Shown here: piece after piece, positions 1 to 40,063 of the stretch
Layout of the letters: every line of letters starts with the position of its first letter
How positions within the stretch are numbered: position 1 is the stretch's first letter
IMG/VR virus record: IMGVR_UViG_3300046535_001587
Location: 1 to 40,063 of that record
Direction: 5' to 3' (one strand)
DNA: 40,063 nt
Origin: a virus
Program-made: the position numbers and the translations under genes
Notes under the pieces: generated by a model
Databases searched by the model: none
The model's input: the letters and a program-made list of their open reading frames with translations, nothing else
Told to the model about the DNA's origin: nothing

Positions 1-52
1 CTCGATGGTGTCGGTATACACCACCGGGTGGGTGTATACCGACACCATCGAG
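1..52. repeat. Perfect terminal inverted repeat (22-bp arms, 8-nt loop)
   Basis: Positions 1-22 are the exact reverse complement of 31-52, with 23-30 as loop. The right arm lies in the reading frame of the first gene, so the left arm looks like a fold-back copy of gene sequence. The simplest reading is a chimeric end from amplification or assembly. A hairpin genome end is the alternative, but protelomerase hairpins normally have a palindromic centre and this loop is not palindromic. Confidence 0.9.
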
Positions 53-3378: not shown

Positions 3379-3386
3379 AGGAGCAC

Positions 3387-3641: not shown

Positions 3642-3648
3642 GGGACAC

Positions 3649-3813
3649 ATGACACTCGAACAGCTCATCGAGGACATCAAACAGCTGACCGCGCAGCGCG
3701 ACCAGCTCATTGGGCAGACGAACCAAATCATCGGTGCGCTCCGCTACGCCCAGGGGCTCAGGGAGCAGATGGAGCACCCCGCGGACGTTGCAAAAACCGA
3801 GCCAACCACGTAA
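3649..3813 (+). CDS. Small coiled-coil protein, 54 aa
   Basis: The start is ATG after a GTAGGGGACAC leader, and the stop is TAA at 3811. The protein is almost wholly amphipathic helix rich in Leu, Ile, Gln and Glu (start MTLEQLIEDIKQLTAQRDQL), so a coiled coil is likely. It fits the 7-nt gap after the previous gene and the 21-nt gap before the next. Function unknown. Confidence 0.65.
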   Translation: MTLEQLIEDIKQLTAQRDQLIGQTNQIIGALRYAQGLREQMEHPADVAKTEPTT

Positions 3814-3834: not shown

Positions 3835-4188
3835 ATGCCGTCAACACCGAAACGCATCGCCGGCCCCGCATTCATTGCGGCGTCCGCGACCAACATCTAC
3901 ACGCCTCCGGCGTCGACCATTCTGACGCTGATTCGTGGTATCCACGTCACCAACAAGGACACGGTTCCCCGGACGTTCACCCTGTATGTGGGCGCCACGG
4001 GCGGCTCCGCCTCCGGCACCGAGCTGATTGCCTCGAAGGTGCTCCAGGCGGGCGAGAGCTACGACTGGTATGCGCCGGCCAGCGGGCTCCTGATGAAGTC
4101 GACCGACTTCTTGACGGGCATCGCGTCGAGCGCCTCGACGTGTGTCATCACCGTGATGGGCGAGACCTACACCGACATCTCGGCGTAG
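3835..4188 (+). CDS. Putative small virion (decoration-like) protein
   Basis: The 117-aa product is beta-rich, with a pattern (IRGIHVTNKDTVPRTFTLYVG ... GESYDWYAP) often seen in small phage head or tail accessory proteins that assemble on the virion surface. No catalytic motif is visible. A TAGGAGTCAGGA leader precedes the ATG. It is the last gene before the internal promoter at 4199. The virion role is inferred from position and composition. Confidence 0.65.
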   Translation: MPSTPKRIAGPAFIAASATNIYTPPASTILTLIRGIHVTNKDTVPRTFTLYVGATGGSASGTELIASKVLQAGESYDWYAPASGLLMKSTDFLTGIASSASTCVITVMGETYTDISA

Positions 4189-4198
4189 CGTCATTATT

Positions 4199-4227
4199 TT
4201 GACACCGGGACCCAGTGGGGCTATCAT
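4199..4227 (+). promoter_or_regulatory. Near-consensus sigma70 promoter within the late region
   Basis: TTGACA at 4199-4204 and TATCAT at 4222-4227 are separated by exactly 17 nt. An AT-rich run (TCATTATTT) lies just upstream. Transcription should begin near 4234 and read the gene at 4351 and those after it. The element lies in a 162-nt gene-free gap (4189-4350), unusual in this tightly packed block. Confidence 0.75.
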
Positions 4228-4243
4228 AGCTCTGCTGGGTCCC
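4207..4243. promoter_or_regulatory. Operator-like dyad centred on the -10 element
   Basis: GGGACCCAG (4207-4215) is perfectly inverted as CTGGGTCCC (4235-4243). A second inverted pair, GCTA (4220-4223) and TAGC (4227-4230), has the same centre at 4225, inside the -10 box. Only 4 nt per side break the symmetry. If transcription starts near 4234, the left arm is not transcribed, so a DNA-binding operator is likelier than an RNA hairpin. For read-through transcripts from upstream it would also form a strong hairpin. Confidence 0.7.
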
Positions 4244-4350
4244 CGGGGTTCTTGGTGACGTGCGACGCATGAGCGCAGCCCACCCCCGCTGACCCGGCTT
4301 CAACCCCGCCTGGTGGCGCGTAAGCCCCACCCAAACAAGGACTTACAGCC

Positions 4351-8870: not shown

Positions 8871-10298
8871 ATGGCCGACCAATACGACGTGCCAGAGCTT
8901 CAGGGTGGCTCGGGAGCCGTCAACCCGGGCGCCGCAGCCTACTACGGGTTCCAGCGTGAGCTGATGCGCCGGCAGCAGGATGCCGCCGCGAAGGCGGAGG
9001 TGCAGCGCAAACTGGCGGCTGACGCCGTGGCTGCGGACGTGGCGCGCGCACAGATTGCCAACAGCACCGAGGCCACCAAGGCGCTCAGCGAGCAGCGTCA
9101 GGCGGCGACGGCGAAGACGGCGCTCGACAACATCACCTCGCAGATGCAGCCGGGCGCACAGCTCGCTCCCGAGCAATCCGCGGTGCTGCGCAAGAACGGC
9201 GGCGCGGCCATGATTCTTGGCAAACCCGCCACACCAGAGATGACCGCCGGGGTTCCGTCCCAGTTTGCAGCGGCGCCCGATGCGGCAGCTGCGTCCGAGG
9301 TTCCCATCACCCCGGCGGCTCCGGCTACCGAAGTCTACAAGGGTGACGCGAAGCAGCAGGAAGACGAGCAACAGAAGGCGTTCGCCCAGGATGTGCTCGA
9401 TGGCAAGCATGCCACGGGCAACGACCGGGTAGACCAGTTCCTCAAGGCCCAGGCCACGCAGATTCTCGGTGGCGGCAAGTTCGGCACGATTCCAGCGGCC
9501 ATCATCAACGAGCCCAAGGCGGGCACCGAGGAGAACACCCCGGAGAAGCGTTACCTGGGGCTCATCTCCAAGCAGGACAGCGGCACCGCGCTCACGGCGG
9601 ACGAGGCGTCCTACGTGAAGCACTACAAGGAGCAGCACCCCGACGAGGCGACCAAGGTCAAGGCAGCGGCTGACGCAGCCGAGGCCGCGGGTGTTCGCGC
9701 CACCGACCGTCAGAACGCTGGCTACGCGGAGGCGGCGCGCACCAAGTTCCGCACGCTGCTCAACACCGAGGATGCCAAGTCCGCAGACGGACTCGAACGC
9801 GTCGCCCGCGCCAAGGCCGTGCTCAACAGCCCCAGCTTCCTGGCGGACGCGCTCGCGGCTCCCGAAGTCCTCCAGATTGTGGCCGGCGGCATGGGCTCCG
9901 GTCTGCGTATGACGGACGCCGAGCTGAACCGCGTGAACAGCGCGCAGAGCTACATCGACCAGCTCAAGGGCAAGCTCGCGAAAGCCGGCATCGGTGAACG
10001 CGTCACCATCCAGGAAGAGCTGCGCAAGTCGATGAAGACCATCATCGACGTGGTCGAGAAGGCGAAGACCCGGTTGGAGACAGTGCGCGGCGACTTCCGC
10101 AAGCAGATTGCCGGCGCCAAGACACCCGAGCAAGTGGATGCGCTTCAGGCCGAATACGGCGCGGCGCGCATGGAAGCACTGAGCGGCGAGGACAAGCCGA
10201 AGGGCAACGCGCCCGCCGAGGGAACCCAGGGCACCGTGAACGGTCGGCCCGCTGTGTGGAAGAACGGCTCGAAGGGACCAGGTTGGTATGCCCGATGA
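8871..10298 (+). CDS. Putative internal virion/ejection protein, helical, 475 aa
   Basis: The protein is almost entirely helical and rich in Ala, Lys, Glu and Gln, with long heptad-like stretches at 20-90 and 245-420 and a short beta-like C-terminus (GTVNGRPAVWKNGSKGPGWYAR) that resembles a tail often found on phage virion proteins. There are no Cys-rich or catalytic motifs apart from one isolated Cys-free core. It lies between two other candidate ejection proteins, and its stop overlaps the next gene by 11 nt. The role is inferred from composition and order. Confidence 0.5.
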   Translation: MADQYDVPELQGGSGAVNPGAAAYYGFQRELMRRQQDAAAKAEVQRKLAADAVAADVARAQIANSTEATKALSEQRQAATAKTALDNITSQMQPGAQLAPEQSAVLRKNGGAAMILGKPATPEMTAGVPSQFAAAPDAAAASEVPITPAAPATEVYKGDAKQQEDEQQKAFAQDVLDGKHATGNDRVDQFLKAQATQILGGGKFGTIPAAIINEPKAGTEENTPEKRYLGLISKQDSGTALTADEASYVKHYKEQHPDEATKVKAAADAAEAAGVRATDRQNAGYAEAARTKFRTLLNTEDAKSADGLERVARAKAVLNSPSFLADALAAPEVLQIVAGGMGSGLRMTDAELNRVNSAQSYIDQLKGKLAKAGIGERVTIQEELRKSMKTIIDVVEKAKTRLETVRGDFRKQIAGAKTPEQVDALQAEYGAARMEALSGEDKPKGNAPAEGTQGTVNGRPAVWKNGSKGPGWYAR

Positions 10299-12672
10299 AC
10301 TGTTGAGCGCGGACCCTCACGCTGACGAGCTGCTGTCCGCTGACGCGGGCGCCGGCACGCGTGAGCCGTTCGACGTCAAGAAGCAGAACGAGCAGATGCG
10401 CGCCAACATGGCGAAGCAGGCGGGCGCCGGCAAGCAGGACCTCCTGGCCGACTTCGCCACGTCTGGGCCGATGGGCGTGAACCTGGAGGGGCTGAACGCC
10501 GCCCACGAGGGGAACAACGCCAAGGCCGCGCACAAAATCATCATGGGCTCCGGCATGGTTGCGGCTCCCGCGATGCTGCCGGCGCTCGGCTCAGTGGCCG
10601 GCGTTGCCGGCCTCGCGGCTGGGTTGGCGGGCGGCACCGCAGGCACGGGCCTGGCGCGCGGCGCGGCTGGCCTGGTGACCGACAACCCCGACTACATCGA
10701 CCTGGCGGGGGATGTCGGCGGGCTCGCGGGCGGCATTGGCGCGGCCAAGGCTGGCGCGGCCGCTCCCGGGCTCGTGGGGCGCGGTATGACCGCTGCCGGC
10801 GACATCCTGGAGTCTACCCCGACTGTCAAACAGACCATCGGGACCTTGCTCAAGAAGGGCGGCGCCAAGCTCGCCACCGGCACCAAGACCGCTCCGGTTC
10901 CCGGGCTCGAACGCAACATGCCGAACGTCTCGCCACAGCGCCCGGCGGTGACCCTCTACGGCCCGAGCGCCGAGGGTATCGGCGTCGCGCCGGAGGCCGC
11001 TCCGGTAGCCGTCGAGCCCCACATGCCCAACGTCAGCGCGGGCAGCACGGGTGAGTATGCCCCGAGCGCCGAGGGCATCCAGGGCTCCGTCGAGCCCCAC
11101 ATGCCGAACACGAGCGCCGGCCCCGAGGGCTCGCGCCTGTTCGCGCCGAGCGCGGCGAACGTTCCGAGCGCCCCCGTAGTCGAGGGCAACGTCGTGCCCC
11201 CATCGAAGACCAACGAGATGCCCGACGCCTACCGCGCCGAGCTGCTCAAGGCGCTCGAAGCGCGACGTGCGTCGAATAACGCCGCATTCGACGCAAAGGT
11301 TGCGGAGCACGGCGCCGCGCCGCTCTCCCCGGGCGCCTCGCCCCAGGACGTCGCCAACAGCTACGCCAAGTCCAAGACACTTGAGGCGCCGGTTCCGCAC
11401 GAACCCGTCAAGGTGGATGCTGAGCGCGGCAAGCTCATCGCGGACGCCTACGAGGCGATGAAGCACGACCCGACGAACCCCCGCGTGAAGCAGGCGTATG
11501 ACGCGCTCGCACGCGAGACCGCGGACCAGTTCTACTACATCAAGGCGCACACGGGGCTCCAGACCGAGGCGTATACCGGCGAGGGCAACCCCTACAAGAG
11601 CTCCGCCGCGATGATGAAGGACGTCAAGGAGAACAATCACCTGTTCTACGAGCCGACCTCGAAGACGGGCGCGCTCCCTGAGGACCACCCGATGGCGGGC
11701 ACGGTTCCCACGTCGCCCACTGGCGGCGAAGGCGAGATGCCCATCAATGACATGTTCCGCATCGTGCACGACTACTTCGGGCACGCCAAGGAAGGGCACC
11801 AGTTCGGGGTGCACGGCGGGGAGAACGCAACCCTCGCACACTCGAAAATGTTCTCGCCTGATGCGCGCGCCGCGCTGATGACCGAGACGCGTGGGCAGAA
11901 CAGCTTCGTGAACTTCGGACCCGGCTCGAAGGCTCCCCAGGGGCAGCGCCCATTCGCCCCTCAGAAGGCCGGGCTGCTTCCGCCGGAGCTGCGCGGGCTC
12001 AAGCCGGAGAACGTGAACCCGGGCATCGAGCAGAACAACGCCGCTGAGCTGCGCACCCCGGAAGGCAAGGCCCAGGTCGCAGAGGCCGGCGCGACTCCGA
12101 CGACACCGGCCACGGGAGCTAGCCGCGAGAACGTCCCCACCTCGGAGACGGTCAAGAAGGCTATCAACCACGCGGTCAATTTCGAGACCGCGAATACGCC
12201 CACGATGGAAGTCGTGGACAACGGCGGCAACCGCATCGACATCAATGGGAGCGGCGAGGGCAATGGCATCTCGAAGGAAGCCATCGGACGGGCCAACGCC
12301 AATGCCGCAAAAGGCGAGCGCATCGCCTACATGGACCGAGCTGGCAAGATTCAGGAAATCGCAGACCAGGTCAACGCCGAGGACCTGAACCCGAGCAAGG
12401 GCCAGAACCTGGTGAGGGTGGACAAGGCCGGCAACGCCGTTGTGCTCAAGGAAAACGGTGGACGTTCACCAGTGGGCGCTGGCAACAAGGCGACGTCGTT
12501 CGACGCGATTGCCAAAACCGCGGCCGAGCACCTTCGGTCGGGCAAGAGCGACGCCGAAACCACCGACATTATTCGTGCTGCCCTGGAATCTGAGCGCGCG
12601 AAACGCCTCCAGAAGGCCGACAAGGCAACCCTCACGCGCCAAATTCTGCGCGATGCGAAGGACATGTTGTGA
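10288..12672 (+). CDS. Large virion protein (794 aa) with repeat region and HDxFGH / TETRGQN domain
   Basis: Residues 85-155 form a Gly/Ala-rich hydrophobic segment. Residues 205-305 contain three degenerate repeats (EPHMPNVSAG, then APSAEGI) at about 211, 246 and 272. Residues about 380-560 form a conserved-looking domain with VHDYFGHAKEGHQFG at about 492 and TETRGQNSFVNFG at about 532; the His/Asp/Glu pattern looks enzymatic, but I cannot name the reaction. The C-terminus is helical. Size and order fit the largest ejected internal protein of a short-tailed phage, or a tape-measure-like role. Confidence 0.55.
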   Translation: MPDELLSADPHADELLSADAGAGTREPFDVKKQNEQMRANMAKQAGAGKQDLLADFATSGPMGVNLEGLNAAHEGNNAKAAHKIIMGSGMVAAPAMLPALGSVAGVAGLAAGLAGGTAGTGLARGAAGLVTDNPDYIDLAGDVGGLAGGIGAAKAGAAAPGLVGRGMTAAGDILESTPTVKQTIGTLLKKGGAKLATGTKTAPVPGLERNMPNVSPQRPAVTLYGPSAEGIGVAPEAAPVAVEPHMPNVSAGSTGEYAPSAEGIQGSVEPHMPNTSAGPEGSRLFAPSAANVPSAPVVEGNVVPPSKTNEMPDAYRAELLKALEARRASNNAAFDAKVAEHGAAPLSPGASPQDVANSYAKSKTLEAPVPHEPVKVDAERGKLIADAYEAMKHDPTNPRVKQAYDALARETADQFYYIKAHTGLQTEAYTGEGNPYKSSAAMMKDVKENNHLFYEPTSKTGALPEDHPMAGTVPTSPTGGEGEMPINDMFRIVHDYFGHAKEGHQFGVHGGENATLAHSKMFSPDARAALMTETRGQNSFVNFGPGSKAPQGQRPFAPQKAGLLPPELRGLKPENVNPGIEQNNAAELRTPEGKAQVAEAGATPTTPATGASRENVPTSETVKKAINHAVNFETANTPTMEVVDNGGNRIDINGSGEGNGISKEAIGRANANAAKGERIAYMDRAGKIQEIADQVNAEDLNPSKGQNLVRVDKAGNAVVLKENGGRSPVGAGNKATSFDAIAKTAAEHLRSGKSDAETTDIIRAALESERAKRLQKADKATLTRQILRDAKDML

Positions 12673-19704: not shown

Positions 19705-19871
19705 CGCGCCAGCCTCTCCAGCGACCGCTTGTGCCGCTTTTTCATGCGTTCGATGCTTTCCTGCAGCCGGCGGTTTTCCTCCACAAGCCGCTCGCGCTCC
19801 GGGTCGGGGCAGCTGTGCACGTCATCGAAGCCGTCCGAGTAGCTGTTGCCGCACTTGCCACAAGTGGTCAT
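19701..19871 (-). CDS. Zinc-ribbon plus coiled-coil microprotein, 56 aa
   Basis: The N-terminus (MTTCGKCGNSYSDGFDDVHS) carries CxxC plus one further Cys and a His; the C-terminal 35 residues are a charged coiled coil (RERLVEENRRLQESIERMKK). The ATG overlaps the polymerase stop (ATGA), so it is translationally coupled to the polymerase. It could be a polymerase accessory peptide (inference). Confidence 0.6.
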   Translation of the reverse strand: MTTCGKCGNSYSDGFDDVHSCPDPERERLVEENRRLQESIERMKKRHKRSLERLAR

Positions 19872-22507
19872 AGCTCCACCATTTCCGACCAGTTCATGCC
19901 CGCCTCGGGCTTGGTCTCCAGCGGCACCGAGAAACCCTCGGGCGCTCTCGTCATAATCTCTTGCAAGCGTGGGGCCACGTCGAGCAGGCGCCCGCTCTCC
20001 ACCTCGGACAGCAAGTCGTCGTGCGTCCACAGCAGCGGCTCGACCCAGTGCCCCTGTCGCCGTTCGGGGACATAGACCTCTTTCCAGGACGCTGCGAGCA
20101 CCTGCTTGCCAATGAACTGGGCGCCCTCCTGGATGGGCGTCGAGTAGGCGAAGCGCTCGGCCTCGGCGCGCACCCGGGAGTCCTTCGAGCGAATCCCGCC
20201 CACGTAGCGAATCCGCCCGCTCATGCAGCGGATAAAGCCGTTCTTCTCGGCCTCGGCCACCATCTTTTGCTTGTAGATGCCGGCGCCCACATAGAGCTTG
20301 TTCGCCTCGTCTATCATCTTCTGCGCGTCGTCGTCATCGATGTCGAGGCCGGCTTTCCTCAGTTCGAGCGCCAGGCCGATGTGCGTCTGGCCCATCCAGT
20401 ATCCGAAGTTGATAGCCTTCGCCGCGGTGCGCTCGCCACTGTTCTTCTCGGGGCGCCCGTAGATGCGCTGGCACATGTTCGTGTGCAGGTCGATTTGCGA
20501 GCCATCGGGGTTGCGCCGCTCGCCCCGATAGATGGCGAGCATCACGGGGTCTTGTGACAAATGTGCTCCGACGCGCAGCTCGACCTGCGACTCATCGAGT
20601 GACAGAAACAGGCACCCCTTGCGTGGAATAAAGCAAGCACGAAATGCCTTAGCAAACTTACCGTGCTTGGGCATGGCGAGCAGGTTTGGGTTCTTCGCCG
20701 CCAGGCGTCCACTTGGTGTGCGGTTAAGGAGTAGCTCGCAGTGGATGCGCTGGTCGAACGGCCAGCGGTCGACAAGGTCAGGGAGGCGCTCAACGAACGT
20801 CCATCGCAGCTTAAAATATTCACGGTAGCTCCTCACATTGGCAATGGCTGGGAACTCGGGATACATGCGCTGCAGCGCTTCGAGCACCTTGTCGTTGGTG
20901 CTGCCGCGCCCGCCCTCGGTCTGCTTGCCCAGCTGCTCAATCTGCAGCTGGTTATACAGGTAGTCGGCTACCTGGTCGCCGCTGTTCGGGTTGAAGTCTT
21001 CTCTCCCGGTGTCCGCCTGGAGCTTCGCGAGCAGCACGGCCAGTTCCGCATCGAGCTTCGCGCCGAGCCGCTGGAACGCCGCGGGGTCTGGCGCCAGGCC
21101 GACGCGCATCATGCGGTCAAGTATCGGATACGTCCCCAGGTCGAGTCGGTAGACGGGCTCCAGACCCATCGCCTGGATTTGGGGCAGCAGCTTGTGCTTG
21201 AGGCGCAGCGTCGCATCCGGGTCCCGGCTGGCGTAGCGCAGCGCCACGGCCGGGTCGACATCGCTCAGCGACGCCTCGGGAATCTCGCTCCGCATCACCG
21301 CGTAGCCGGCCACCTGGATATCTTCGTTCTGGTCCTGCCACAGTCGGTAGGGTTCCTTCGAGCCGAGCACACGAGCGGCCGCTTGCATGAGCGCCGGCTT
21401 GGGCAGCTTGGGGAGCACCTTGATACGGCGCTTCCTCACATTGCGCTGGAAGTCGAAGTCCTCCTGGCGCATCGCTTGGTAGCGTGTGTTCTGCTGCTCC
21501 CACAGCTTGTGCAGATAGTCTCTGGCGTGCTTGTCTTGCGCGTCCCCCAGGACGTCCTTGTAGTCCTGCATCTCCATGCCGCACTCGCGCACCGCGAGCG
21601 GCTTGAGCCCCTGGGGAATGACGCCCAGCTCATACGCCATCAGCATCGTATCCTCGATGGGGAGCCCCTCATCGAGGTAGTCGATGCCGCCGATGATGCG
21701 GGACAGCTTGCAGTCCCACAGTGCATTGTGGAAGACGGTTACCGGCCGCGCTTCGCGCGTCCACTCGACGTAGGCGTCGATGACGTCTTTCGAGCGGAGG
21801 AGGATGCCGTCGCCCGGCGCTTTCGAGAGCTGGACGCTCCACGGCGCGTGCGGGTAGCCTTCGGTGTCGTTGGCAACTTCGAGGTAAGCGCGGTAGTCGT
21901 CGGCCCAGGCGTGAAATGCACCGGCACTGTGAAGCTCGGCATAGTTAGTGTCGACGGCGTCGGAATGTAGCCCTCGGGCTGGGGTGAGTCCTCGAAGAAT
22001 ACGCCCGAGGCGTTCAAATCCGACCAGAACTCGGTTTCCGTCTTCGGGGCTATGGAATCCGCTGGCGGGATGGACCTGGGGTGCAATCGTGCAGTCTGCT
22101 CGGAGGCCACATCGAGACACAACTTCTGGAGGGGGGACAAGGTGGAGTCCCCATACTTCATCGACGTCGACATCCCCGAGGAAATAGCGAATCGCTTCGC
22201 GACCGAGCGCCACAATGATTTTAGGTTGAACACGTGCAATCTCCTCCTTGAGGTTGTGACCCGCTTCCTCGTAATCTTCCTTCGGGTGCGGGATACCCTT
22301 GCCCGGCGCCGGCCGGCGGAAGTAGTTGGTCAGAAACCAATGCTTCCGCGGCCAGCCGATGCGCTCAAGAAGTCGGTCAACCTCTTCACCGACTTGCCCG
22401 ACGAACGGTTCGTGCTTCTGCCAGTCCTTCCAGCCAGGCTCCGACCCGACGAGCATGCGCTCGTTGGGGACTCTGCCTATTCCGTTGACTGGCCGGTCGG
22501 ACGCCAC
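19868..22507 (-). CDS. DNA polymerase, family A, with N-terminal uracil-DNA glycosylase-like domain
   Basis: The 879-aa replicative polymerase has three parts. Residues 1-175 resemble family 4 UDG (GSEPG 21-25, PFVG 34-37, HPAS 146-149) but lack the N-terminal iron-sulfur Cys pair. Residues 205-435 are a 3'-5' exonuclease (DTEG 214-217, HNALWD 260-265, YASRD 425-429). The polymerase domain has motif A DESQVELR (638-645), motif B R693..K697..F701 and motif C HDD (829-831). The position equivalent to E. coli Tyr766 is Met705. UDG-like domains on phage polymerases are known, for example in SPO1. GTG start; coupled to the microprotein downstream. Confidence 0.93.
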   Translation of the reverse strand: MASDRPVNGIGRVPNERMLVGSEPGWKDWQKHEPFVGQVGEEVDRLLERIGWPRKHWFLTNYFRRPAPGKGIPHPKEDYEEAGHNLKEEIARVQPKIIVALGREAIRYFLGDVDVDEVWGLHLVPPPEVVSRCGLRADCTIAPQVHPASGFHSPEDGNRVLVGFERLGRILRGLTPARGLHSDAVDTNYAELHSAGAFHAWADDYRAYLEVANDTEGYPHAPWSVQLSKAPGDGILLRSKDVIDAYVEWTREARPVTVFHNALWDCKLSRIIGGIDYLDEGLPIEDTMLMAYELGVIPQGLKPLAVRECGMEMQDYKDVLGDAQDKHARDYLHKLWEQQNTRYQAMRQEDFDFQRNVRKRRIKVLPKLPKPALMQAAARVLGSKEPYRLWQDQNEDIQVAGYAVMRSEIPEASLSDVDPAVALRYASRDPDATLRLKHKLLPQIQAMGLEPVYRLDLGTYPILDRMMRVGLAPDPAAFQRLGAKLDAELAVLLAKLQADTGREDFNPNSGDQVADYLYNQLQIEQLGKQTEGGRGSTNDKVLEALQRMYPEFPAIANVRSYREYFKLRWTFVERLPDLVDRWPFDQRIHCELLLNRTPSGRLAAKNPNLLAMPKHGKFAKAFRACFIPRKGCLFLSLDESQVELRVGAHLSQDPVMLAIYRGERRNPDGSQIDLHTNMCQRIYGRPEKNSGERTAAKAINFGYWMGQTHIGLALELRKAGLDIDDDDAQKMIDEANKLYVGAGIYKQKMVAEAEKNGFIRCMSGRIRYVGGIRSKDSRVRAEAERFAYSTPIQEGAQFIGKQVLAASWKEVYVPERRQGHWVEPLLWTHDDLLSEVESGRLLDVAPRLQEIMTRAPEGFSVPLETKPEAGMNWSEMVEL

Positions 22508-27784: not shown

Positions 27785-28651
27785 TTAGGGTTTCGCCAAC
27801 TGATGCGCCGAAATCCACGCAATGAGTGGTGGTGCAATATACTTGCCAACAAACGTCATCACCGTGCCGAACTGCTGGGTGAACGTCCGCACCTCGCCCC
27901 GAATCTCGGTCACCTTCTGGTTGGTGTCCAGCTCCAGCCGCATCAGCTCGGCTACCTGGGCCTGGAGCGTCGTGTCGACTACTGGCGGCGGCGGCGGGAC
28001 CGGGGTCGGTGTGGGCGTCGGGGTCGGGGTCGGTGTGGGCACGGGTGTCGGCACGGGCGCCGGCACGAGCTGCCCCTCGCGCCACACAATCGGCAACGGG
28101 TGCTGTCCGTTGGCGTCGGGCCACACGACTTCCAGGATGTTGGTCCGCGCGTGCAGCGGCGTCTGGTTGTCGCTGCGCGTCGAGCCGGCCACCACCATTA
28201 CGCCGATACGTTCACCAGGGAACGGATTATGGCCGCTCATCTCGTGCCAGCGGCCCGGGTCATACAGCCACCCGGTGCCAATCAGGTCGCTCGGGGAGCC
28301 CTCGGGCTTCGAGCCGTTGGTCTGGCTCGGCCGCAGGCGCTCGGCGCCCGTGGCGAACCACTGGCCGTTGATGTTCAGGAACACCCACAGCGTGCCCGAC
28401 TGGCTCGGCGGGCCGGCGTCGATGCTCACAGACGGCCAGTTCTCGGTGTTGCTGGTCTGGAGGTCCATGTGCCCGCCGCCCACGCCGAAATTGTCGAGCG
28501 TCGCGGATACTGGGAAGCCGAGAATCGCCGGGTCACTGCCTACGACCACCACGCAGCCCGGGCCACGGTCGCCGCACGCGACGGTGGGAATCTGGGCCGA
28601 CGCCGACGCCGACACGAGCAACGCCACCAAGATGGCGAGTGCAGTTCTCAT
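27785..28651 (-). CDS. Exported protein with Pro-Thr repeat linker and C-terminal membrane helix
   Basis: The 288-aa product starts with a signal peptide (MRTALAILVALLVSASASAQ, cleavage likely after ASA). Residues 25-190 form an unrecognised beta-rich domain (WVFLNINGQWFATGAERLR, then WLYDPGRWHEMSGHNPFPGE). A PT/PV repeat linker spans about 195-225, then a coiled coil (TTLQAQVAELMRLELDTNQK) and a hydrophobic end (VMTFVGKYIAPPLIAWISAH). The topology suggests a periplasmic domain tethered to the membrane. ATG overlaps the helicase stop (TGATG). Its function is not known. Confidence 0.7.
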   Translation of the reverse strand: MRTALAILVALLVSASASAQIPTVACGDRGPGCVVVVGSDPAILGFPVSATLDNFGVGGGHMDLQTSNTENWPSVSIDAGPPSQSGTLWVFLNINGQWFATGAERLRPSQTNGSKPEGSPSDLIGTGWLYDPGRWHEMSGHNPFPGERIGVMVVAGSTRSDNQTPLHARTNILEVVWPDANGQHPLPIVWREGQLVPAPVPTPVPTPTPTPTPTPTPVPPPPPVVDTTLQAQVAELMRLELDTNQKVTEIRGEVRTFTQQFGTVMTFVGKYIAPPLIAWISAHQLAKP

Positions 28652-30249
28652 CAGAATTTCTCCTCGATAAACGTCAGGGTTTCCTTCGCACGGGTGACCG
28701 CCACATAGTAGATGTTCTCTTCCTCTTTCCGCTTCATCTCGTCCACCTCGAACTCGCGGCACTTGCACTGGCTCGGGCGGCGCTTGCAATTCACACAGGG
28801 CGCCGGCAGGAAGAACGTCGACTCCAGCAGGAACACGTTGGTGGCTTCGAGCCCCTTGGCCTTGTGCACCGAGCTGCAGATGACATACGCGCCGGGGTCC
28901 GCCACGAACAGGTTGTCAATTTCAACCACCAGGGACGGGACCGAACGCGCGCCCTCGGCCAGGATGCGCAGCGTCTCGCACTTGTCGACCATCTCATCGA
29001 TGCGGTGCTCGTGCTTCTCGGCAATGAGGCGGGCGCGCTGCTTGTTCTCATACGACTGCAGACGCGCCAGGAACTCGGGGACGCTGTCGGCGGCGCTGCC
29101 CACTGCGAGCTGCTTGACCAGCTGCTTGAGTGCGGCGCCGATGTCACGCCCGACAATCCGCGCTGGGATGCCCCTCATCAGGAACCGGAGCGCGGTCCTC
29201 GCGAGCGGCGCGTTGCGCCGGCTGAGCACGAAGTCGCCGGCCTTGGCTCGGGATACCAGGTCATCAAGGGACGCGATGCGGGAGACCACACCAGCCGGCG
29301 CGCTAGCGTCGACCTCGTAGTCTGGGACGAAACGCTGGGCGATGGCGTGGACCTTCTGCGGGCAGCGATACGTTTTCGAGAGCGGGAGTTCGTCGGCATC
29401 GAGCACACCCTTGAGCCGGTCCAGGGAGCCGCTGTCGGCGCCGCGGAACCCGTAGATAGCCTGGCGGTCGTCGCCCACGAGCACCACGCGTCCCTCGGGC
29501 TTGCACGCACGCATGGCCAGCGTCAGCTGCGAGGCGCTCATGTCCTGGGCCTCGTCCACCACCACCATGTCGAAGTCGGGGCTCACCATGCCGTTGACCA
29601 GCGGGAGGAAAATCATGTCCGCGAAGTCGATGCCGGTGAACTTCGCGCTCTCGGGGTTCGCGGCCCAGCGCAGCCCGTGCAGCGCGGCGCCGGCCAGCTG
29701 CTCGATGGTGAAGGTGTCGTTGAAAGATGGCGTGATGTCGAACTCCTCCGCCAGGTCCACCATCTGGTCGAGGGTGTTGTCGAGGCTCGGGAGAATCTCG
29801 CGCGCCTTGGTGACGAGGCGCCCGACCAGGCGCTTGGCGCCGTAGCCCAGACCCTTGGACACCATGTCAGCAATCGCTTCCTCACGCTCCGAGCGCTTGC
29901 AGGTTGCGATGTAACCCACATGCTTGCGGAGCATGCGGTAGCCCAGCGAGTGCAGGGTGAGCGCGGTGGCGTTCGGGTTGCTGAGGCGCGCCGCCAGCTC
30001 CTCCTGGATGCGCTTGTTGAATGCCGCAATGAGAATGGCGCGCTCGGGGGCGAAGTCCACGGCTCGCAGAATCGTGGTCGTCTTGCCCGTGCCGGCGCGC
30101 GCACGCACAATCAGGTTGCCCGCCTCGGGACCACGCTTGAACCACTCGAAAATGGCAAGCTGCAGCTCGGATGGGGTGAACTCCCGCAGCACAACGGCGG
30201 CGGGAGTCGGGGTGTTATCGACGGCGGCGGACGCTCTGGATGATGGCAT
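28651..30249 (-). CDS. UvrD/Rep-like superfamily 1 DNA helicase
   Basis: The 532-aa product carries the full SF1A set: Walker A ARAGTGKT (50-57), DEAQD (232-236), GDDRQAIYGFRG (259-270), TYRCP (293-297), VHKAKGLE (461-468) and VAVTRAKE (516-523). A Cys cluster CVNCKRRPSQCKC (485-497), probably zinc-binding, is inserted just before motif VI. It is shorter than cellular UvrD (about 720 aa). The N-terminus MPSSRASAAVD matches those of two other proteins in this window. No ribosome site is visible before the ATG. Confidence 0.92.
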   Translation of the reverse strand: MPSSRASAAVDNTPTPAAVVLREFTPSELQLAIFEWFKRGPEAGNLIVRARAGTGKTTTILRAVDFAPERAILIAAFNKRIQEELAARLSNPNATALTLHSLGYRMLRKHVGYIATCKRSEREEAIADMVSKGLGYGAKRLVGRLVTKAREILPSLDNTLDQMVDLAEEFDITPSFNDTFTIEQLAGAALHGLRWAANPESAKFTGIDFADMIFLPLVNGMVSPDFDMVVVDEAQDMSASQLTLAMRACKPEGRVVLVGDDRQAIYGFRGADSGSLDRLKGVLDADELPLSKTYRCPQKVHAIAQRFVPDYEVDASAPAGVVSRIASLDDLVSRAKAGDFVLSRRNAPLARTALRFLMRGIPARIVGRDIGAALKQLVKQLAVGSAADSVPEFLARLQSYENKQRARLIAEKHEHRIDEMVDKCETLRILAEGARSVPSLVVEIDNLFVADPGAYVICSSVHKAKGLEATNVFLLESTFFLPAPCVNCKRRPSQCKCREFEVDEMKRKEEENIYYVAVTRAKETLTFIEEKF

Positions 30250-30260
30250 TGTGGATATAG

Positions 30261-30464
30261 CTATTGCACTCGGCGTGCCAAGGGCACAATGCGCAGCGGG
30301 TTGCCGGGAGTGCCAGTTGGCCAGAGTTTATAGCTGTCGCCGTGCTCATCAGTGAAGACGAAGTAGTCCTCTCTTGAGGTCATCTGCCGGTGCTCTGTCC
30401 GAATCAGAGGACAGCCCGTCCAACAACCCTGGTCGTCGGGCGCTCCACAACCGCGGCAAACCAT
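30261..30464 (-). CDS. Small zinc-binding protein, 67 aa
   Basis: The N-terminus has CRGCG...GCWTGCP, a four-to-five Cys zinc site, and the rest is a small beta domain (EDYFVFTDEHGDSYKLWP). The ATG at 30464 has a strong AGGAGGTCCA site, which ends the structured gene-free region upstream. It precedes the helicase by 11 nt and may be co-translated with it. Confidence 0.7.
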   Translation of the reverse strand: MVCRGCGAPDDQGCWTGCPLIRTEHRQMTSREDYFVFTDEHGDSYKLWPTGTPGNPLRIVPLARRVQ

Positions 30465-30519
30465 TGGACCTCCTGGGGAAGAATGGAGCGGCCACCAGGA
30501 ATCCCTCCCAGCCGTTGCC

Positions 30520-30763
30520 CGACCCGGTGCTGAGAACAGCGAGGGTCGAGAGCCGCATGTGTAAGCCAAGCCCCGTGCGGATTGACCGCCTTAGATGCCA
30601 GCCGCCGCATCCCCGTGGTGCGGCTGGTGCGTGCCCTGCTAGGCTTGTCACCACGAGTAGCTATCAACCCGCGGGGCGGCGTTCCGCACGCTCCATCCCC
30701 GCGGGAGACTCGGCACGGCTATGTCCCCTTATCGAGGAGTTTACCGTGCCGAACCCGGAGTCT
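30520..30763 (-). ncRNA. Candidate multi-helix structured RNA
   Basis: This lies in a 297-nt gene-free stretch, the longest in a block whose other junctions mostly overlap. Helices (plus coordinates): A 30711-30718 with 30744-30751, extended by 30706-30710 with 30759-30763; inner 30725-30729 with 30735-30739; B 30668-30676 with 30697-30705, with inner 30679-30682 and 30688-30691; C 30598-30605 with 30620-30627; F 30577-30580 with 30586-30589; D 30567-30572 with 30642-30647, enclosing C and F as a three-way junction; E 30520-30525 with 30543-30548, inner 30529-30532 with 30537-30540. The inner pair in A contains a G-U that only the minus strand can form. No known RNA family was recognised. Confidence 0.65.
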
Positions 30764-31643
30764 AGCCCAGCGTCACGATGTCGCTGGTCTTGTCGAAGTT
30801 GACACCGTCCAGGGTGCCGAGCTTCTCGACGTCGAGCGCGAATGCACGAACCGCCTCACGCAGGTTGGCGTCCATGCTGTCCATCGCCTGGAGGAGCTTC
30901 ACGCTGAGCTTGTTCCGCGTCAGCTTGTTCTCTTTCGCAGCCTTCAGGACCTGGGCCACCATCGTCTCCGCGGTCGCTTCGACAAGCGCCGCATCGACCG
31001 CAACGGACGCGCCGGCCTTCGAGCTGCCGGTGTTCGAGCTGCCGGCGAGCTTCGGCTGCGCCAGCTTCGTGATGTCTTCCTGGCCGTAGTAGTTCGCGAT
31101 GACCAGGTTCTCACGCTTGAACGTGCCACCCGGCTTGCCGTCCTTCGGAGCCACCACACGCGGGTGGTCGACGGACCACTTGTCGGTTGCCGCCGCCCAG
31201 TCGAACATGGCGCGCACGCCGCGAATGTTCGAGTAGTCCGCCACGAGACCCGCGGGGTCCTCCGGGAAGTTCTCTTCGCTGAAGCCGTCCCCGCCGTCGA
31301 CCGGCGCCGACAGGGAGTTCAGGAAGATAATCCACGGGGAGTCCTTGTAGAACCCCTTGGTGCCCTTGAGACCGCGGCCGTCCGCCACAATCTCGTAGTC
31401 CTTGGCGTCGCCCACCTTGATGGGCTGCAGCGAGGGACCCTGTTCCTGCCGGCCATCTTCCTGGATGGTCAGCACCGCGAACAGCGCCTTGTAGGTGGAC
31501 GGCTTGCCGTCCTTGCCGAGTGCCTGCCGTTCTTCCTTGAAGAGCGGGTTCTTGGTGGTGAAATTGATGTCGAGCACCACCCCGTCCTTGCGACGGAGGA
31601 TTCCGCCGCCACCGACTGCTTTCGACGCGCGAGCTGAAGGCAT
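30762..31643 (-). CDS. Replication-associated protein, possibly an ssDNA-binding-type protein, 293 aa
   Basis: The N-terminus MPSARASKAVG matches the helicase and RepA-like ATPase. A beta-rich region follows (residues 20-110, LDINFTTKNPLFKEE, then TYKALFAVLTIQED), then DWAAATDKWSVDHPRVV and a Ser/Gly/Ala linker (about 195-215, SSNTGSSKAGASVAVD), and a helical C-terminus (ETMVAQVLKAAKENKL). The beta-rich body and location between replication genes suggest an SSB-like or Sak4-partner protein, but no motif proves it. GAGGAG lies 8 nt before the ATG. The stop marks the 5' edge of the structured RNA. Confidence 0.6.
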   Translation of the reverse strand: MPSARASKAVGGGGILRRKDGVVLDINFTTKNPLFKEERQALGKDGKPSTYKALFAVLTIQEDGRQEQGPSLQPIKVGDAKDYEIVADGRGLKGTKGFYKDSPWIIFLNSLSAPVDGGDGFSEENFPEDPAGLVADYSNIRGVRAMFDWAAATDKWSVDHPRVVAPKDGKPGGTFKRENLVIANYYGQEDITKLAQPKLAGSSNTGSSKAGASVAVDAALVEATAETMVAQVLKAAKENKLTRNKLSVKLLQAMDSMDANLREAVRAFALDVEKLGTLDGVNFDKTSDIVTLG

Positions 31644-36360: not shown

Positions 36361-36413
36361 TGGGCCTCCTCGTGATAGATGCGGCGATGAACGAGTTTCT
36401 GCAAGAGTCGGGA

Positions 36414-36433
36414 GCGCCGCTCAGCTGCGGCGC
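36414..36433 (-). terminator. GC-rich hairpin between genes
   Basis: GCGCCGC (36414-36420) pairs perfectly with GCGGCGC (36427-36433) in the 87-nt gap between two minus-strand genes (36361-36447). There is no U run; it may attenuate transcription or protect the RNA. I see nothing else in the gap except a weaker stem (GCCTA/TAGGC) over the upstream stop codon. Confidence 0.45.
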
Positions 36434-36447
36434 GCCTCTCGGCTCGC

Positions 36448-36615
36448 CTACGCTTCGCTAGGCGGCGGCGTCTCGACTTCGTTGCCATCGGTGGTGACCT
36501 CCTGTGCGGCGGCGTGCGCCTTCTGCTTCTCTTCGCGCGCCTTGAAGCGCTTGTTCCAGGACGGCTTCTCGCGCTTGTCCTTCGGGTCGAGCTTGCGCTT
36601 GGTGCCCTGCTTCAT
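36448..36615 (-). CDS. Highly basic small protein, 55 aa
   Basis: Lys/Arg-rich first half (MKQGTKRKLDPKDKREKPSW) and an acidic tail (VTTDGNEVETPPPSEA). Probably disordered and nucleic-acid-binding. GGAGGG site upstream; start overlaps the previous stop (ATGA). Confidence 0.6.
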   Translation of the reverse strand: MKQGTKRKLDPKDKREKPSWNKRFKAREEKQKAHAAAQEVTTDGNEVETPPPSEA

Positions 36616-36779
36616 ACGCGTTTCCCTCCGTTGCGGCGGTTCACGAGCACGCCGTATGCCAGCTTTCGCAGATGTTTGACCGTCGAGTGGCGCATGATGC
36701 GACGGAGCGCGACGTCGGGCCACGCGCGGAAGTCGCGCACGAATGACTGGCGCTCGGGAGTGTCGTTGTTGGTGCTCAC
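36612..36779 (-). CDS. Small basic protein, 55 aa
   Basis: The GTG at 36779 overlaps the upstream stop (GTGA) after GGTGGAGAA. The product (STNNDTPERQSFVRDFRAWP, then LRKLAYGVLVNRRNGGKRV) is helical and basic at its end. Function unknown. Confidence 0.55.
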   Translation of the reverse strand: MSTNNDTPERQSFVRDFRAWPDVALRRIMRHSTVKHLRKLAYGVLVNRRNGGKRV

Positions 36780-37114
36780 TTCTCCACCCCTTTCGACGGG
36801 CAATCGTCTGTCACGCAGACGCCGCAGCTGGTCTTGACAAGTTTTCCGGTGTATTCGTCGTAGGCACTGTAGCGCGGCGTGCGCTGGACGAGCTTATACC
36901 CGCAGTCGCCGCAGAACGTGCGCACGCGCGGGCCAGGGTCCGGTGCCGGCGGCTCCACAGGTGGCTCCACGGGCGCCTCGTATTTGCCCGGCGAGAAATG
37001 TGCGAGCTTGCTTTTGACCACGGCGCCGTCCACGTAAATGACATCCGCGTGGAGCACAGCGTTGTCCGGCAGGTAGTTGTATTCACGTTCGTTCGAGCAG
37101 AAAATCGTAATCAC
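36776..37114 (-). CDS. Two-part protein with zinc ribbon, 112 aa
   Basis: The N-terminal half is a small beta domain (MITIFCSNEREYNYLPDNAV, then VIYVDGAVVKSKLAHFSPGK). After a Pro-rich linker (APVEPPVEPPAPDPGP) comes a zinc ribbon with CGDCG and CGVC, plus one more Cys (DDCP). GTG start with a strong AAAGGAGGG site. Function unknown. Confidence 0.65.
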   Translation of the reverse strand: MITIFCSNEREYNYLPDNAVLHADVIYVDGAVVKSKLAHFSPGKYEAPVEPPVEPPAPDPGPRVRTFCGDCGYKLVQRTPRYSAYDEYTGKLVKTSCGVCVTDDCPSKGVEK

Positions 37115-37203
37115 TTGGTCCCTCCTTTGGCGACGAAGTAGTAGAGCAGCGAGCCGGCGGCGTAGAGCAGCGCGCCGCTGAAGTAGAGCACGGGCGCGCT
37201 CAT
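37111..37203 (-). CDS. Membrane microprotein, 30 aa
   Basis: ATG 37203 overlaps the upstream stop (ATGA) after GGAGGACCG. The peptide is one hydrophobic helix rich in Tyr and Leu (VLYFSGALLYAAGSLLYYFV) and a basic end. The stop overlaps the next GTG. Confidence 0.55.
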   Translation of the reverse strand: MSAPVLYFSGALLYAAGSLLYYFVAKGGTK

Positions 37204-37418
37204 CGGTCCTCCTGATTCAGGGTGACAAGGTTGAGAGGGTAGAAGGACAGCAGCAGCGAGCCATCCAGGCGCACAGCGGCGCGCATGCCGTCGCGCTCGT
37301 CGCTGCAGCGGTCGCAGCCGGTGTTGACGTCGTGGAACCCCACGAGCACACCATACAGGTAAGTCGGTAGCTCGGCGCCGTAGGGCGAGCTTTCGATGCG
37401 AACACGTTTGTCTAGCAT
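37200..37418 (-). CDS. Hypothetical protein, 72 aa
   Basis: A beta-rich product (MLDKRVRIESSPYGAELPTY, then CDRCSDERDGMRAAVRL) with one CxxC. GAGGAGACC precedes the ATG; the longer frame upstream is a shadow. No family recognised. Confidence 0.6.
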   Translation of the reverse strand: MLDKRVRIESSPYGAELPTYLYGVLVGFHDVNTGCDRCSDERDGMRAAVRLDGSLLLSFYPLNLVTLNQEDR

Positions 37419-37425
37419 GGTCTCC

Positions 37426-37647
37426 TCAGTTGCAAAAGGCACACCAGGTGCCGCTGTCATCTCGTTCGGCCGCATCGACCGCTTTCGAGGACACACCCTC
37501 GACGGGCTTGTAACCATCGACGTCGAAGGTCTCATCCTCCAGCCGGTCAGCGTGCAGCCAGCACGCGTGGAACGTCGCGGTGTAGCCCTCGGGGCTCACG
37601 ACTTGGCGCTTCACGCACGCGGGGCGAGGTCCGCTGATAGGTGTCAT
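37426..37647 (-). CDS. Hypothetical protein, 73 aa, C-terminal CxxC
   Basis: The product has a beta-rich start (KRQVVSPEGYTATFHACWLH), an acidic middle and ends WCAFCN. Start overlaps the upstream stop (ATGA) with a GAGGCACCG leader. Function unknown. Confidence 0.6.
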   Translation of the reverse strand: MTPISGPRPACVKRQVVSPEGYTATFHACWLHADRLEDETFDVDGYKPVEGVSSKAVDAAERDDSGTWCAFCN

Positions 37648-37922
37648 CGGTGCCTCGCAATCTCGCGCATGTTGTGCTGCACGACATAGGCGCGAACCCC
37701 CACCAGGCCGGCGCCCATCGCGAGCGCGAGACGCGGGTGTGTCGCATGCAGCCGGCGCAGCGAGCGGTCAGCCGCCCATGCTTGCGCGCCCAGGATGCCA
37801 TCAATCGCCACCGGGTTCTGTGTAGGCAGAAGCACCTCGCGCCCGCCAGTGTTCAGCATGTAGTGGGTGGTTGCGGCGTCCGAGCCGGCGAGAATCCACC
37901 AGGACAATAGCAGGGGCTTCAT
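37644..37922 (-). CDS. Small membrane protein, DUF5658-like, 92 aa
   Basis: The pattern GSDAATTHYMLNTGGREVLLPTQNP resembles the DUF5658 membrane family signature (D..TT..L..G..E.NP). Hydrophobic stretches at 3-13 and 65-80 suggest two membrane segments. Start coupled to the upstream stop by ATGA. Role unknown. Confidence 0.55.
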   Translation of the reverse strand: MKPLLLSWWILAGSDAATTHYMLNTGGREVLLPTQNPVAIDGILGAQAWAADRSLRRLHATHPRLALAMGAGLVGVRAYVVQHNMREIARHR

Positions 37923-38281
37923 CGGCGGCTCAGCGTCAGCACGCCATAGGGGCCGATGCAGCGCTCCCAGGTGGACGCGTCGAAGATGTTCCCGCGCACC
38001 GTGGTTGCCTCGCTCTTGCCGATGAACGGCTTGGGACCGCCCGCATAGAGCACGGCGCCGTCGCTGTTGCGGATGAAACCGTAGTAGGACGAGCCCTTGT
38101 AGCCCTGCGGGCCGGTCTCGACGCGCATGAGCTTGGTGTATTTCGGGCCAGCGCTGGCCTCGATGTGCGTGACGTAGAGTCGCACGCTATCGCCCGCATG
38201 GGTCTTGTTGGTGACGCGTTCGACTTCCGCGATGAAGTCTTCGAGCGCGGCGTCGAACGTCTGCTTCTGTGTGGTTTCCAT
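37919..38281 (-). CDS. Hypothetical protein, 120 aa
   Basis: The ATG at 38281 is defined by an AGGAGGGCACA site that belongs to a repeated leader module. The product (FDAALEDFIAEVERVTNKTH, then YYGFIRNSDGAVLYAGGPKP) looks like a compact alpha/beta domain, with a beta hairpin near GFIRNSDGAVLYAGG, as in small phage proteins of unknown function. The longer frame upstream is rejected. Confidence 0.65.
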   Translation of the reverse strand: METTQKQTFDAALEDFIAEVERVTNKTHAGDSVRLYVTHIEASAGPKYTKLMRVETGPQGYKGSSYYGFIRNSDGAVLYAGGPKPFIGKSEATTVRGNIFDASTWERCIGPYGVLTLSRR

Positions 38282-38310
38282 TGTGCCCTCCTGATGTGCA
38301 ATCACCGTGC
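38279..38310 (-). repeat. Leader/ribosome-site module, copy 1
   Basis: The 32 nt up to and including the ATG at 38281 contain GATTGCACA, then TCAGGAGGG, then CACAATG. They match copy 2 at 38691-38722 in nearly every position, with single-base gaps. Confidence 0.7.
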
Positions 38311-38493
38311 CACCCGCATCAGCATCTCTTCGGCGCCCATCACCGCCGGCTCGCCGCAGCGCTTGCACGGGTAGCCCTTGGCGTCGGGCTCCACGAACGT
38401 CTGGCGCCCGTGGCAGGCGACGCAGAACCCCGTGCCGTTGTCCTTCTCGACTGCCGTCATTATCGCCTTGATGGTGAGCTTCAGCTTGGTCAT
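38302..38493 (-). CDS. Zinc-ribbon protein, 63 aa
   Basis: Two Cys pairs, CVAC (about residue 24) and CKRC (about 43), define a small zinc ribbon (with GRQTFVEPDAKGYP between). AGGAGGGCGAA precedes the ATG at 38493, which overlaps the upstream stop (ATGA). Function unknown. Confidence 0.65.
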   Translation of the reverse strand: MTKLKLTIKAIMTAVEKDNGTGFCVACHGRQTFVEPDAKGYPCKRCGEPAVMGAEEMLMRVAR

Positions 38494-38693
38494 TTCGCCC
38501 TCCTGATTCGGACGATGTTGTCTTCCGTCGCGACGCCAGGCGTGCCGTAGCGCCCGCCCATGTTCAGCACCCAGCCGTAGGGTCCGCGCATCACCGCCTT
38601 GCCCGACTTCTCCGCCCACTCCTGGCCGTCGCGCCCGATGCCGGCGGGCACGAGGATGGTGACGCGGTCGCCGTGTCGAATGGTATCAATCAT
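38490..38693 (-). CDS. Hypothetical beta-rich protein, 67 aa
   Basis: The product (MIDTIRHGDRVTILVPAGIG, then YGWVLNMGGRYGTPGVA) looks like a small SH3-like barrel. AGGAGGCACA precedes the ATG, and both ends overlap neighbours by ATGA. No family assigned. Confidence 0.65.
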   Translation of the reverse strand: MIDTIRHGDRVTILVPAGIGRDGQEWAEKSGKAVMRGPYGWVLNMGGRYGTPGVATEDNIVRIRRAK

Positions 38694-38872
38694 TGTGCCT
38701 CCTGATTGTGCAATCGCTGTGCCACCAGCCAGCCGCGCACGCCTTGGCGTGCGGGACCGAGCAAGACGGGGCGTTTGGCTGCACGTTTCGCGCGGCGTGC
38801 CCGTATCCACGCGTATAGCTCCTCCGGTGTCATCGTCGCGTTGCGTTTCGCGCGGGTCATTCTCGCCATCAT
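38690..38872 (-). CDS. Small basic protein, 60 aa
   Basis: Arg/Lys-rich helical product (MTPEELYAWIRARRAKRAAK) ending in a stretch encoded by the leader module. The ATGATG at 38872 overlaps the upstream stop, and the second ATG is an alternative. Probably DNA- or RNA-binding (inference). Confidence 0.55.
   Translation of the reverse strand: MMARMTRAKRNATMTPEELYAWIRARRAKRAAKRPVLLGPARQGVRGWLVAQRLHNQEAQ
38691..38722 (-). repeat. Leader/ribosome-site module, copy 2
   Basis: Matches copy 1 (38279-38310): GATTGCACAATCAGGAGG followed by CACAATG on the minus strand. Here it also encodes the end of the preceding small protein. Confidence 0.7.
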
Positions 38873-39102
38873 TCACCGTCCTGATTCGGGGACGACTGTC
38901 CTGATTTGCCGTCCTGATTCGGGGACGAGAACCGCCCGCGAGCGTCGCGTAGCGCGTAGAACCGCTCGCGAGCGTAGCCACCTATCTCGGCACGAATCTT
39001 GCCCAGCAGGCGCGTCTCGTGCAAGTCCGACCGCTTTGGTCCGGCATGGACTATGCTGTCATCAGCGAAGCGCGTGCCGCGTTCCCGATTACGTTTTCGC
39101 AT
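38869..39102 (-). CDS. First gene of the minus operon, 77 aa with SPNQDG repeats
   Basis: Basic N-terminal half (MRKRNRERGTRFADDSIVHA, then LLGKIRAEIGGYARERFYAL) and a polar C-terminus with two SSPNQDG copies encoded by the 20-bp direct repeat. The ATG at 39102 has no clear ribosome site, so the start is provisional. Function unknown. Confidence 0.5.
   Translation of the reverse strand: MRKRNRERGTRFADDSIVHAGPKRSDLHETRLLGKIRAEIGGYARERFYALRDARGRFSSPNQDGKSGQSSPNQDGE
38876..38928. repeat. 20-bp direct repeat, period 33 nt
   Basis: CCGTCCTGATTCGGGGACGA occurs at 38876-38895 and 38909-38928, with a partial third unit (TGTCCTGATT) between. The 33-nt period is a multiple of three, so the repeats stay in frame and encode repeated SPNQDG peptides. 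Confidence 0.75.
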
Positions 39103-39200
39103 GGGCCGTGCGATTGCAAGCGAGATGCCGGCGAGTGTTCCACAAAAATAGGACACGAAGTATCGATAGTGGACATTCGGAGCACGGGAAACGCGAAAAC

Positions 39201-39237
39201 GCCAGTGTTTACGCTGGCACGCCGCGTGCTCTATTGT
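39201..39237 (+). promoter_or_regulatory. Divergent-region promoter with overlapping inverted repeat
   Basis: In the 140-nt gap between divergent genes (39103-39242), a plus-strand promoter is suggested by TTTACG (39208-39213) and TATTGT (39232-39237) spaced 18 nt. GCCAGTG (39201-39207) and CGCTGGC (39212-39218) form a one-mismatch inverted repeat over the -35 element, like an operator. The -10 ends 5 nt before the ATG, implying an almost leaderless transcript. A TATCGATA palindrome near 39160 lies further upstream. Confidence 0.45.
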
Positions 39238-39242
39238 CTGGC

Positions 39243-39449
39243 ATGCCCACCAAAACCGCCGATTACGATAAGCGCTATTCCGTTCTATGGCTATCGCGTG
39301 ACGGAGAGCCCGAACTAGTCGCGCGTCCAGTCGCGCGGTTTCGCACGCTACAGAACGCGCGAGACTTTGCCACAGAATATGCTGCCGATACATCGGGCGG
39401 ATTCGTGGCGATTCGCGACAATGAGACCGATACGTTCATCGAATCGTAA
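39243..39449 (+). CDS. Hypothetical small protein, 68 aa
   Basis: The product (MPTKTADYDKRYSVLWLSRD, then RTLQNARDFATEYAADTSGG) is a small alpha/beta domain (the ARDFATEY and GGFVAIRDNE segments). No ribosome site precedes the ATG, consistent with a near-leaderless message. First gene of the right-hand plus-strand set. Confidence 0.6.
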   Translation: MPTKTADYDKRYSVLWLSRDGEPELVARPVARFRTLQNARDFATEYAADTSGGFVAIRDNETDTFIES

Positions 39450-39476
39450 ACCGCAGCCTATCAGGAGATTACAAAA

Positions 39477-39878
39477 GTGAAAAACCACGGCCAGTCGAAC
39501 AACACCATCACGCGCTCACTCGCAAACGCGCAGATTGCGCATGCGGCATCATCGGTCGTATTCGACGCGCGCGACGTCGCCAGCGTCGACGCGTTGTCCA
39601 CGGTTTTCCGTATCTACACTGAGGACACGGGCGACGATTTCCCGGAGCATGTGACCCGCATCGGCTTTGATGGCGCGACGATGTTCAGCGCGACCGGCAT
39701 TTACAAGGGCCAGACGGAGCGTTCCGCCGTGCTCGAAATCATCGCCCCATACGGGCGTCGCGCCGATGTGCTCGCGCTCACGGTCGCCCTTGTTGATGCG
39801 CATCATCAGGAGTGCGCTATTCTCTCCTGGCAGAACGCCCGCGTGTTCGATTCAACGTTCGTCTTCGGCTCGCGGTAA
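39477..39878 (+). CDS. Hypothetical protein, 133 aa
   Basis: GTG start after CAGGAGATTACAAAA. The N-terminal 40 residues are Asn/Ala/Ser-rich; the rest (VFRIYTEDTGDDFPEHVTRI, then RADVLALTVALVDAHHQECA) looks like a small alpha/beta fold. No family recognised. Probably an early host-takeover gene given the position (inference). Confidence 0.65.
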   Translation: MKNHGQSNNTITRSLANAQIAHAASSVVFDARDVASVDALSTVFRIYTEDTGDDFPEHVTRIGFDGATMFSATGIYKGQTERSAVLEIIAPYGRRADVLALTVALVDAHHQECAILSWQNARVFDSTFVFGSR

Positions 39879-39904
39879 CCACGGCATTTCAGGGAGAACG
39901 GGCA

Positions 39905-40063
39905 ATGAAGCTTTATAGCTGGTATGGACTAGACGGGCGAGATTACGGGGTAGATGTTGTTGCCGTTATGGCGACCAGCTATACCGCGGCGCTCAAAAAG
40001 GCAACCAAGGTAGTGGAAGCACGGCACGCCTACGATGATGAGCGCCGCGTGCAAGCCATTGCA
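39905..40063 (+). CDS. Partial hypothetical gene, cut by the window end
   Basis: ATG 39905 after CAGGGAGAACGGGCA opens a frame that runs off the end. The visible 53 residues (MKLYSWYGLDGRDYGVDVVA, then AALKKATKVVEARHAYDDER) begin with a small beta strand and continue as a helix. Function unknown. Confidence 0.6.
   Translation, partial: MKLYSWYGLDGRDYGVDVVAVMATSYTAALKKATKVVEARHAYDDERRVQAIA

Follow-up and report, generated by a model that had tools for sequence, protein, structure and literature searches.

A hairpin-rich, fast-changing noncoding gap follows a 293-aa gene in a phage minus-strand gene block

Does a long gene-free gap among the replication genes of a phage encode a structured RNA of its own, or is it the end region of an mRNA? 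The question is raised by a 297-nt gap on the minus strand of IMG/VR record IMGVR_UViG_3300046535_001587, the 40,063-nt stretch of which was analysed as a whole (hereafter, the window). The gap runs from the stop codon of an ORF of 293 aa to the ATG of a 67-aa zinc-ribbon-like ORF, followed by a helicase gene (Table 1). A first-pass annotation, made from the letters of the sequence, had read it as a multi-helix RNA made of two adjoining long hairpins (A and B), a three-way junction (helix D enclosing C and F) and a 3' hairpin.

Coordinates and codon scores agree that the gap is free of genes. GC3 bias is absent and the codon score is negative in all six frames, unlike in the large neighbouring genes, and these codon statistics rule out a coding sequence. 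The gap, with a GC content of 66%, is not the only long one of its minus-strand block, as had been claimed: other gaps of 160-330 nt are found under the same gene model, and some of them may hold small genes.

Table 1. Features of the gap and of its neighbouring genes in the window; MFE, minimum free energy.
Feature	Position	Strand	Basis or remark
293-aa ORF (P0001)	30762..31643	-	no Pfam/PHROG/NCBIfam match
Gene-free gap rich in hairpins; proposed 3' UTR or spacer between cistrons	30465..30761	-	codon statistics and folding
Hairpin B: 11-bp stem UUCGGCACGGU/GCCGUGCCGAG and inner 5-bp stem, 8 nt past stop	30709..30753	-	z -5.0 (first 60 nt)
Helix A: CCCGCGGGG/CCCCGCGGG (30705-30697/30676-30668)	30668..30705	-	alternative fold or partial transcripts only
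Long-range helices 30700-30696/30479-30475, 30695-30690/30489-30484, 30689-30683/30581-30575	30475..30700	-	MFE fold, alternative to A
Hairpin C: CCAGCCGC/GCGGCTGG	30598..30627	-	z -2.25
3' hairpin, 6-bp (CGACCC/GGGTCG) and 4-bp (GCTG/CAGC) stem	30520..30548	-	z -3.6
Shine-Dalgarno AGGAGG of zinc ORF	30469..30474	-	mostly paired in prediction (sequence and fold prediction)
67-aa zinc-ribbon-like ORF, CxxC-type motifs	30261..30464	-	strong Shine-Dalgarno, weak codon bias
UvrD-type helicase	28651..30249	-	phrog_1967, PF00580

The replication genes around the gap are the helicase and a DNA polymerase. The latter (19868-22507, minus strand) is a family A enzyme with an N-terminal domain of the uracil-DNA-glycosylase superfamily (PF03167 and PF00476), encoded in one 879-aa frame. 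The window is 99.98% identical to a second IMG/VR contig of the same phage (G1, 56.7 kb), and its positions 36370-40063 overlap both G1 ends (1-3694 and 56598-56754). The terminal overlap of G1, 157 bp with two mismatches, indicates a circular or circularly permuted genome of about 56.6 kb. Elsewhere in the window, a 162-nt gap on the plus strand (4189-4350), past a 117-aa ORF (3835-4188), holds a 19-bp hairpin (z -6 to -7 for the first 60 nt), stronger than the one at 30709-30753; this long hairpin is missing at the aligned place in the related genome G2, described below.

The stability of the gap was compared with that of dinucleotide shuffles. On the minus strand, the folding energy is -148.4 kcal/mol vs -128.9 kcal/mol for the shuffles (z -3.85, 0 of 200), and the plus strand gives a z of -2.83. 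Among 200 minus-strand windows of equal length the gap ranks third, and both better-ranked ones overlie called genes; since genic windows fold equally well, a low fold energy is no proof of an RNA class. When the gap is split into segments, numbered from the stop codon, the first 60 nt reach a z of -5.0 and positions 1-107 a z of -3.65, while positions 108-296, the 3' 189 nt, score +0.18: the excess is carried by the 5' 107 nt. In a ranking of 62 genes by fold excess of the 60 nt past the stop, the 293-aa gene comes second. What stands above chance is mainly this 5' segment with its post-stop hairpin, and less the multi-helix whole that had been drawn. The G-U in the inner pair of helix A, taken earlier as a pointer to the minus strand, is a weak argument for direction, because the strand asymmetry of the gap (-15.3 kcal/mol) is equalled by 18% of windows.

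Complementary segments are present for all the named helices, but helix A lies outside the MFE fold. Its equilibrium probability is 0.001, the best fold forced to include it is 5.6 kcal/mol above the MFE, and only some incomplete transcripts, of about 100-180 nt as they would arise during transcription, favour it. The long-range helices of the MFE fold are made of pairs with probabilities mostly of 0.8-0.99, and comparative support was found for none of these helices. The proposed three-way junction scores z -0.68, and its helices C, D and F show no covariation. The 3' hairpin with its two stems is present as described. Hairpin B is the robust element of the gap; the structure first drawn is one among several folds, and its conspicuous parts are mainly the hairpins at the 5' side and a single one at the 3' side. 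A translational coupling, by pairing of the zinc ORF Shine-Dalgarno with a CUCC just past the stop codon, was considered and dropped: the pairing is context-dependent (P about 0.88 in the isolated gap, about 0.34 in a longer context), and in the predictions masking of the stop-proximal bases leaves the Shine-Dalgarno still paired.

The window was searched with Rfam, and no match was found at the gathering threshold; under relaxed conditions the best sub-threshold match, on the plus strand, reached 15 bits (E 1.1). No tRNA or tmRNA was detected. A search for DNA homologues of the gap returned none beyond the second contig of the same phage, comparison with INPHARED and plasmid DNA gave only chance-level stretches of 25-50 nt, and two 16-nt core motifs, scanned across IMG/VR, produced only matches lacking flanking similarity. 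No further close relatives came from searches with the zinc ORF, with a clade-specific helicase profile or with the 293-aa protein, the last run against collections of viruses and of genomes. A terminator and a promoter were looked for in the gap, and neither was found; the gap does not qualify as an intrinsic (Rho-independent) terminator, because it lacks a GC-rich hairpin followed by a U-tract.

Outside the same species, only two phages share the gene order, G2 (L017) and G3 (L016), so that the comparison rests on three close genomes in the collections searched. Their helicases are about 61%, and their 293-aa proteins about 52%, identical to those of the window. The gap is syntenic and shorter (about 170-180 nt), and the zinc ORF, for which no relatives were found, is missing. 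G2 and G3 are about 95% identical, yet the 70-85-nt middles of their gaps are unrelated to each other, enclosed by near-identical borders that comprise a hairpin past the stop codon and the 30 nt ahead of the helicase start. The middle may be a short noncoding module that is exchanged or hypervariable. Positions 172-280 of the window gap show a weak alignment to G2 (p 0.006 in a shuffling test) and none to G3 (p=0.35). The first-pass annotation had itself stated that unrelated sequence in the gap of related phages would speak against its RNA, and this is largely what is found, the G2 and G3 middles being unrelated and the similarity to the window marginal.

The border hairpin of G2 and G3 has 14 strict pairs and starts about 11 nt past the same stop codon; the post-stop fold excess amounts to z -4.2 in G2 and z -3.0 in G3. 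It carries a UUCGUUU tail and was scored terminator-like in a loose scan. Between the two phages, it differs by one two-sided change (G-C to A-U) and by one A-U to G-U change, with no broken pairs; with two sequences, the lone compensatory pair is not significant (260 of 500 shuffles). Covariation as a whole is confined to this single pair, and none was seen for A, C, D or F. The window hairpin could not be aligned with those of G2 and G3, and the consensus fold of the 3' part of the window gap with G2 and G3, obtained from an unreliable alignment, breaks many pairs and has a covariation term that is positive, hence unfavourable.

A profile search of the set of phage contigs used here recovered three genes distantly homologous to the 293-aa one (in L021, L029 and L013). 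In these genomes a different gene comes next, and the gap before it is noncoding and no shorter than 131 nt. In L021 the gap (10257-10393) is almost wholly one inverted repeat (GTG.CGTGTGTAGTAGG / CCTACTACACACG.CAC), with z -5.1, the first of the 14 gaps of its genome; in L029 it holds two adjoining long hairpins (z -4.8, first of 21 gaps). The L013/G48 gap is long and without excess structure (z about -0.3 to -1.2). Hairpins thus follow the homologous gene in most relatives, excess structure being found in the window, G2, G3, L021 and L029 and not in L013. The gap is long behind every homologue. With the genomes combined, its length exceeds expectation (Fisher p 0.015, or 0.036 when the window is left out), and its structure does so marginally (p 0.049, or 0.07 when the window is left out). 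These values are approximate, since small genes escape the simple gene caller that was applied. These marginal statistics suggest that the feature tracks the 293-aa gene and not the helicase, and across the sequences compared the hairpin directly past the stop codon appears as its most constant part. A structural model of the protein (mean pLDDT 71, medium confidence) joins an N-terminal part rich in beta structure to a C-terminal part that resembles a winged helix; fold searches with it gave no significant match, only partial, winged-helix-like ones. The protein is a putative nucleic-acid-binding protein, and that it binds ssDNA is only a guess.

How far the gap is anything other than sequence that folds as its base composition dictates has to be weighed against these data. 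A doubtful but serious candidate is a GC-rich spacer that is neutral for the most part, possibly the remains of a gene or the site of a recombination, subject to small cassette swaps and folding as 66% GC gives except for one hairpin. It accounts for the chance-level stability of the 3' 189 nt and of the junction, for the called genes that fold as strongly, for the unrelated middles inside conserved borders of G2 and G3, and for a zinc ORF restricted to the window phage; it does not account for the stability of hairpin B, for the long structured gaps that recur after the L021 and L029 homologues, or for the compensatory pair in G2 and G3. A DNA-level element acting through inverted repeats, such as a replication origin or a recombination or packaging site, would suit the surrounding replication genes and the inverted repeats of several relatives. 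It is very improbable, however: no GC-skew extremum was found at 30.5 kb, the gap is not AT-rich, the hairpins of the window, G3 and L029 contain sense-strand wobble pairs, and no repeat family common to different genomes was seen.

A discrete structured noncoding RNA of 250-300 nt (a processed sRNA, a decoy or an architectural RNA) would agree with the excess stability of the whole gap, with its low-energy fold and high-probability long-range pairs and with the weak similarity to G2. Phage sRNAs from such a location are known: sRNA1 and sRNA2 of the virulent phage PAK_P3 were detected by RNA-seq as abundant late transcripts of about 100 nt, and the intergenic region they come from measures about 200 nt (PMC4933390). 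The gap shares with them the intergenic location but has no promoter of its own and is known here from its sequence. With the large ornate RNAs GOLLD, ROOL and OLE (PMC12286853) it shares a complex multi-branch predicted fold, but it has no Rfam match, measures about 300 nt, is unconserved and folds for the most part within chance. Against a discrete RNA stand also the lack of a terminator of its own, of a homologue beyond chance in the IMG/VR motif scans, INPHARED and plasmids, of a middle common to the nearest relatives, and of covariation in A, C, D and F. We regard it as unlikely, and a new RNA class is not supported. The regulatory RNA, processed sRNA or architectural RNA of the first-pass annotation survives as a recurrent post-stop stem-loop region, and not as a defined multi-helix class. 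The elaborate RNA was over-read; the gap is probably an ordinary, fast-changing mRNA end region.

The reading that we prefer, and to which we give about an even chance, is that of a rapidly evolving stem-loop 3' UTR, or intercistronic spacer, that uncouples the 293-aa gene from the downstream genes. It fits a feature that comes after the 293-aa gene and whose hairpin directly past the stop varies least. In bacterial and phage operons, stem-loops between cistrons or in 3' UTRs act as weak terminators, or as hairpins that protect or process 3' ends. As in these, a strong hairpin, above chance, lies directly past the stop codon, within about 12 nt of it, the downstream gene has its own Shine-Dalgarno and, in G2 and G3 only, the tail is terminator-like; unlike in these, the window hairpin has no U-tract, the gap is unusually long, and its sequence is not shared even by near relatives. 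Within a minus-strand operon, the gap would be transcribed as the 3' UTR or spacer of the 293-aa gene. Its working part would most likely be the stable stem-loop 8 nt past the stop, together with the adjoining hairpin. The stem-loop would act either on RNA polymerase, by stalling or partial termination, or on the mRNA, by protection or processing of its 3' end. The tail in G2 and G3 suggests that partial termination may be the route there; the window has no such tail. The 293-aa message would then be more abundant than the downstream cistrons, which would restart from their own Shine-Dalgarno site, and the remaining gap would be a fast-changing GC-rich spacer in which small genes like the zinc ORF come and go.

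A bolder proposal, which we hold to be a long shot, is that the 293-aa family carries a structured 3' RNA, conserved in position and hypervariable in sequence, with an action in trans or on the encoded protein (e.g. as a binding or decoy RNA for the product of the same gene), and with a middle module exchanged between close phages.

For GC-rich phage genomes in general, neither a strikingly low fold energy nor a set of nested helices drawn by hand counts by itself as evidence for an RNA class. For the 293-aa family, a testable pattern emerges: its gene would regularly precede a long, usually hairpin-bearing spacer, whatever the next gene, and the interior of this spacer would change very quickly.
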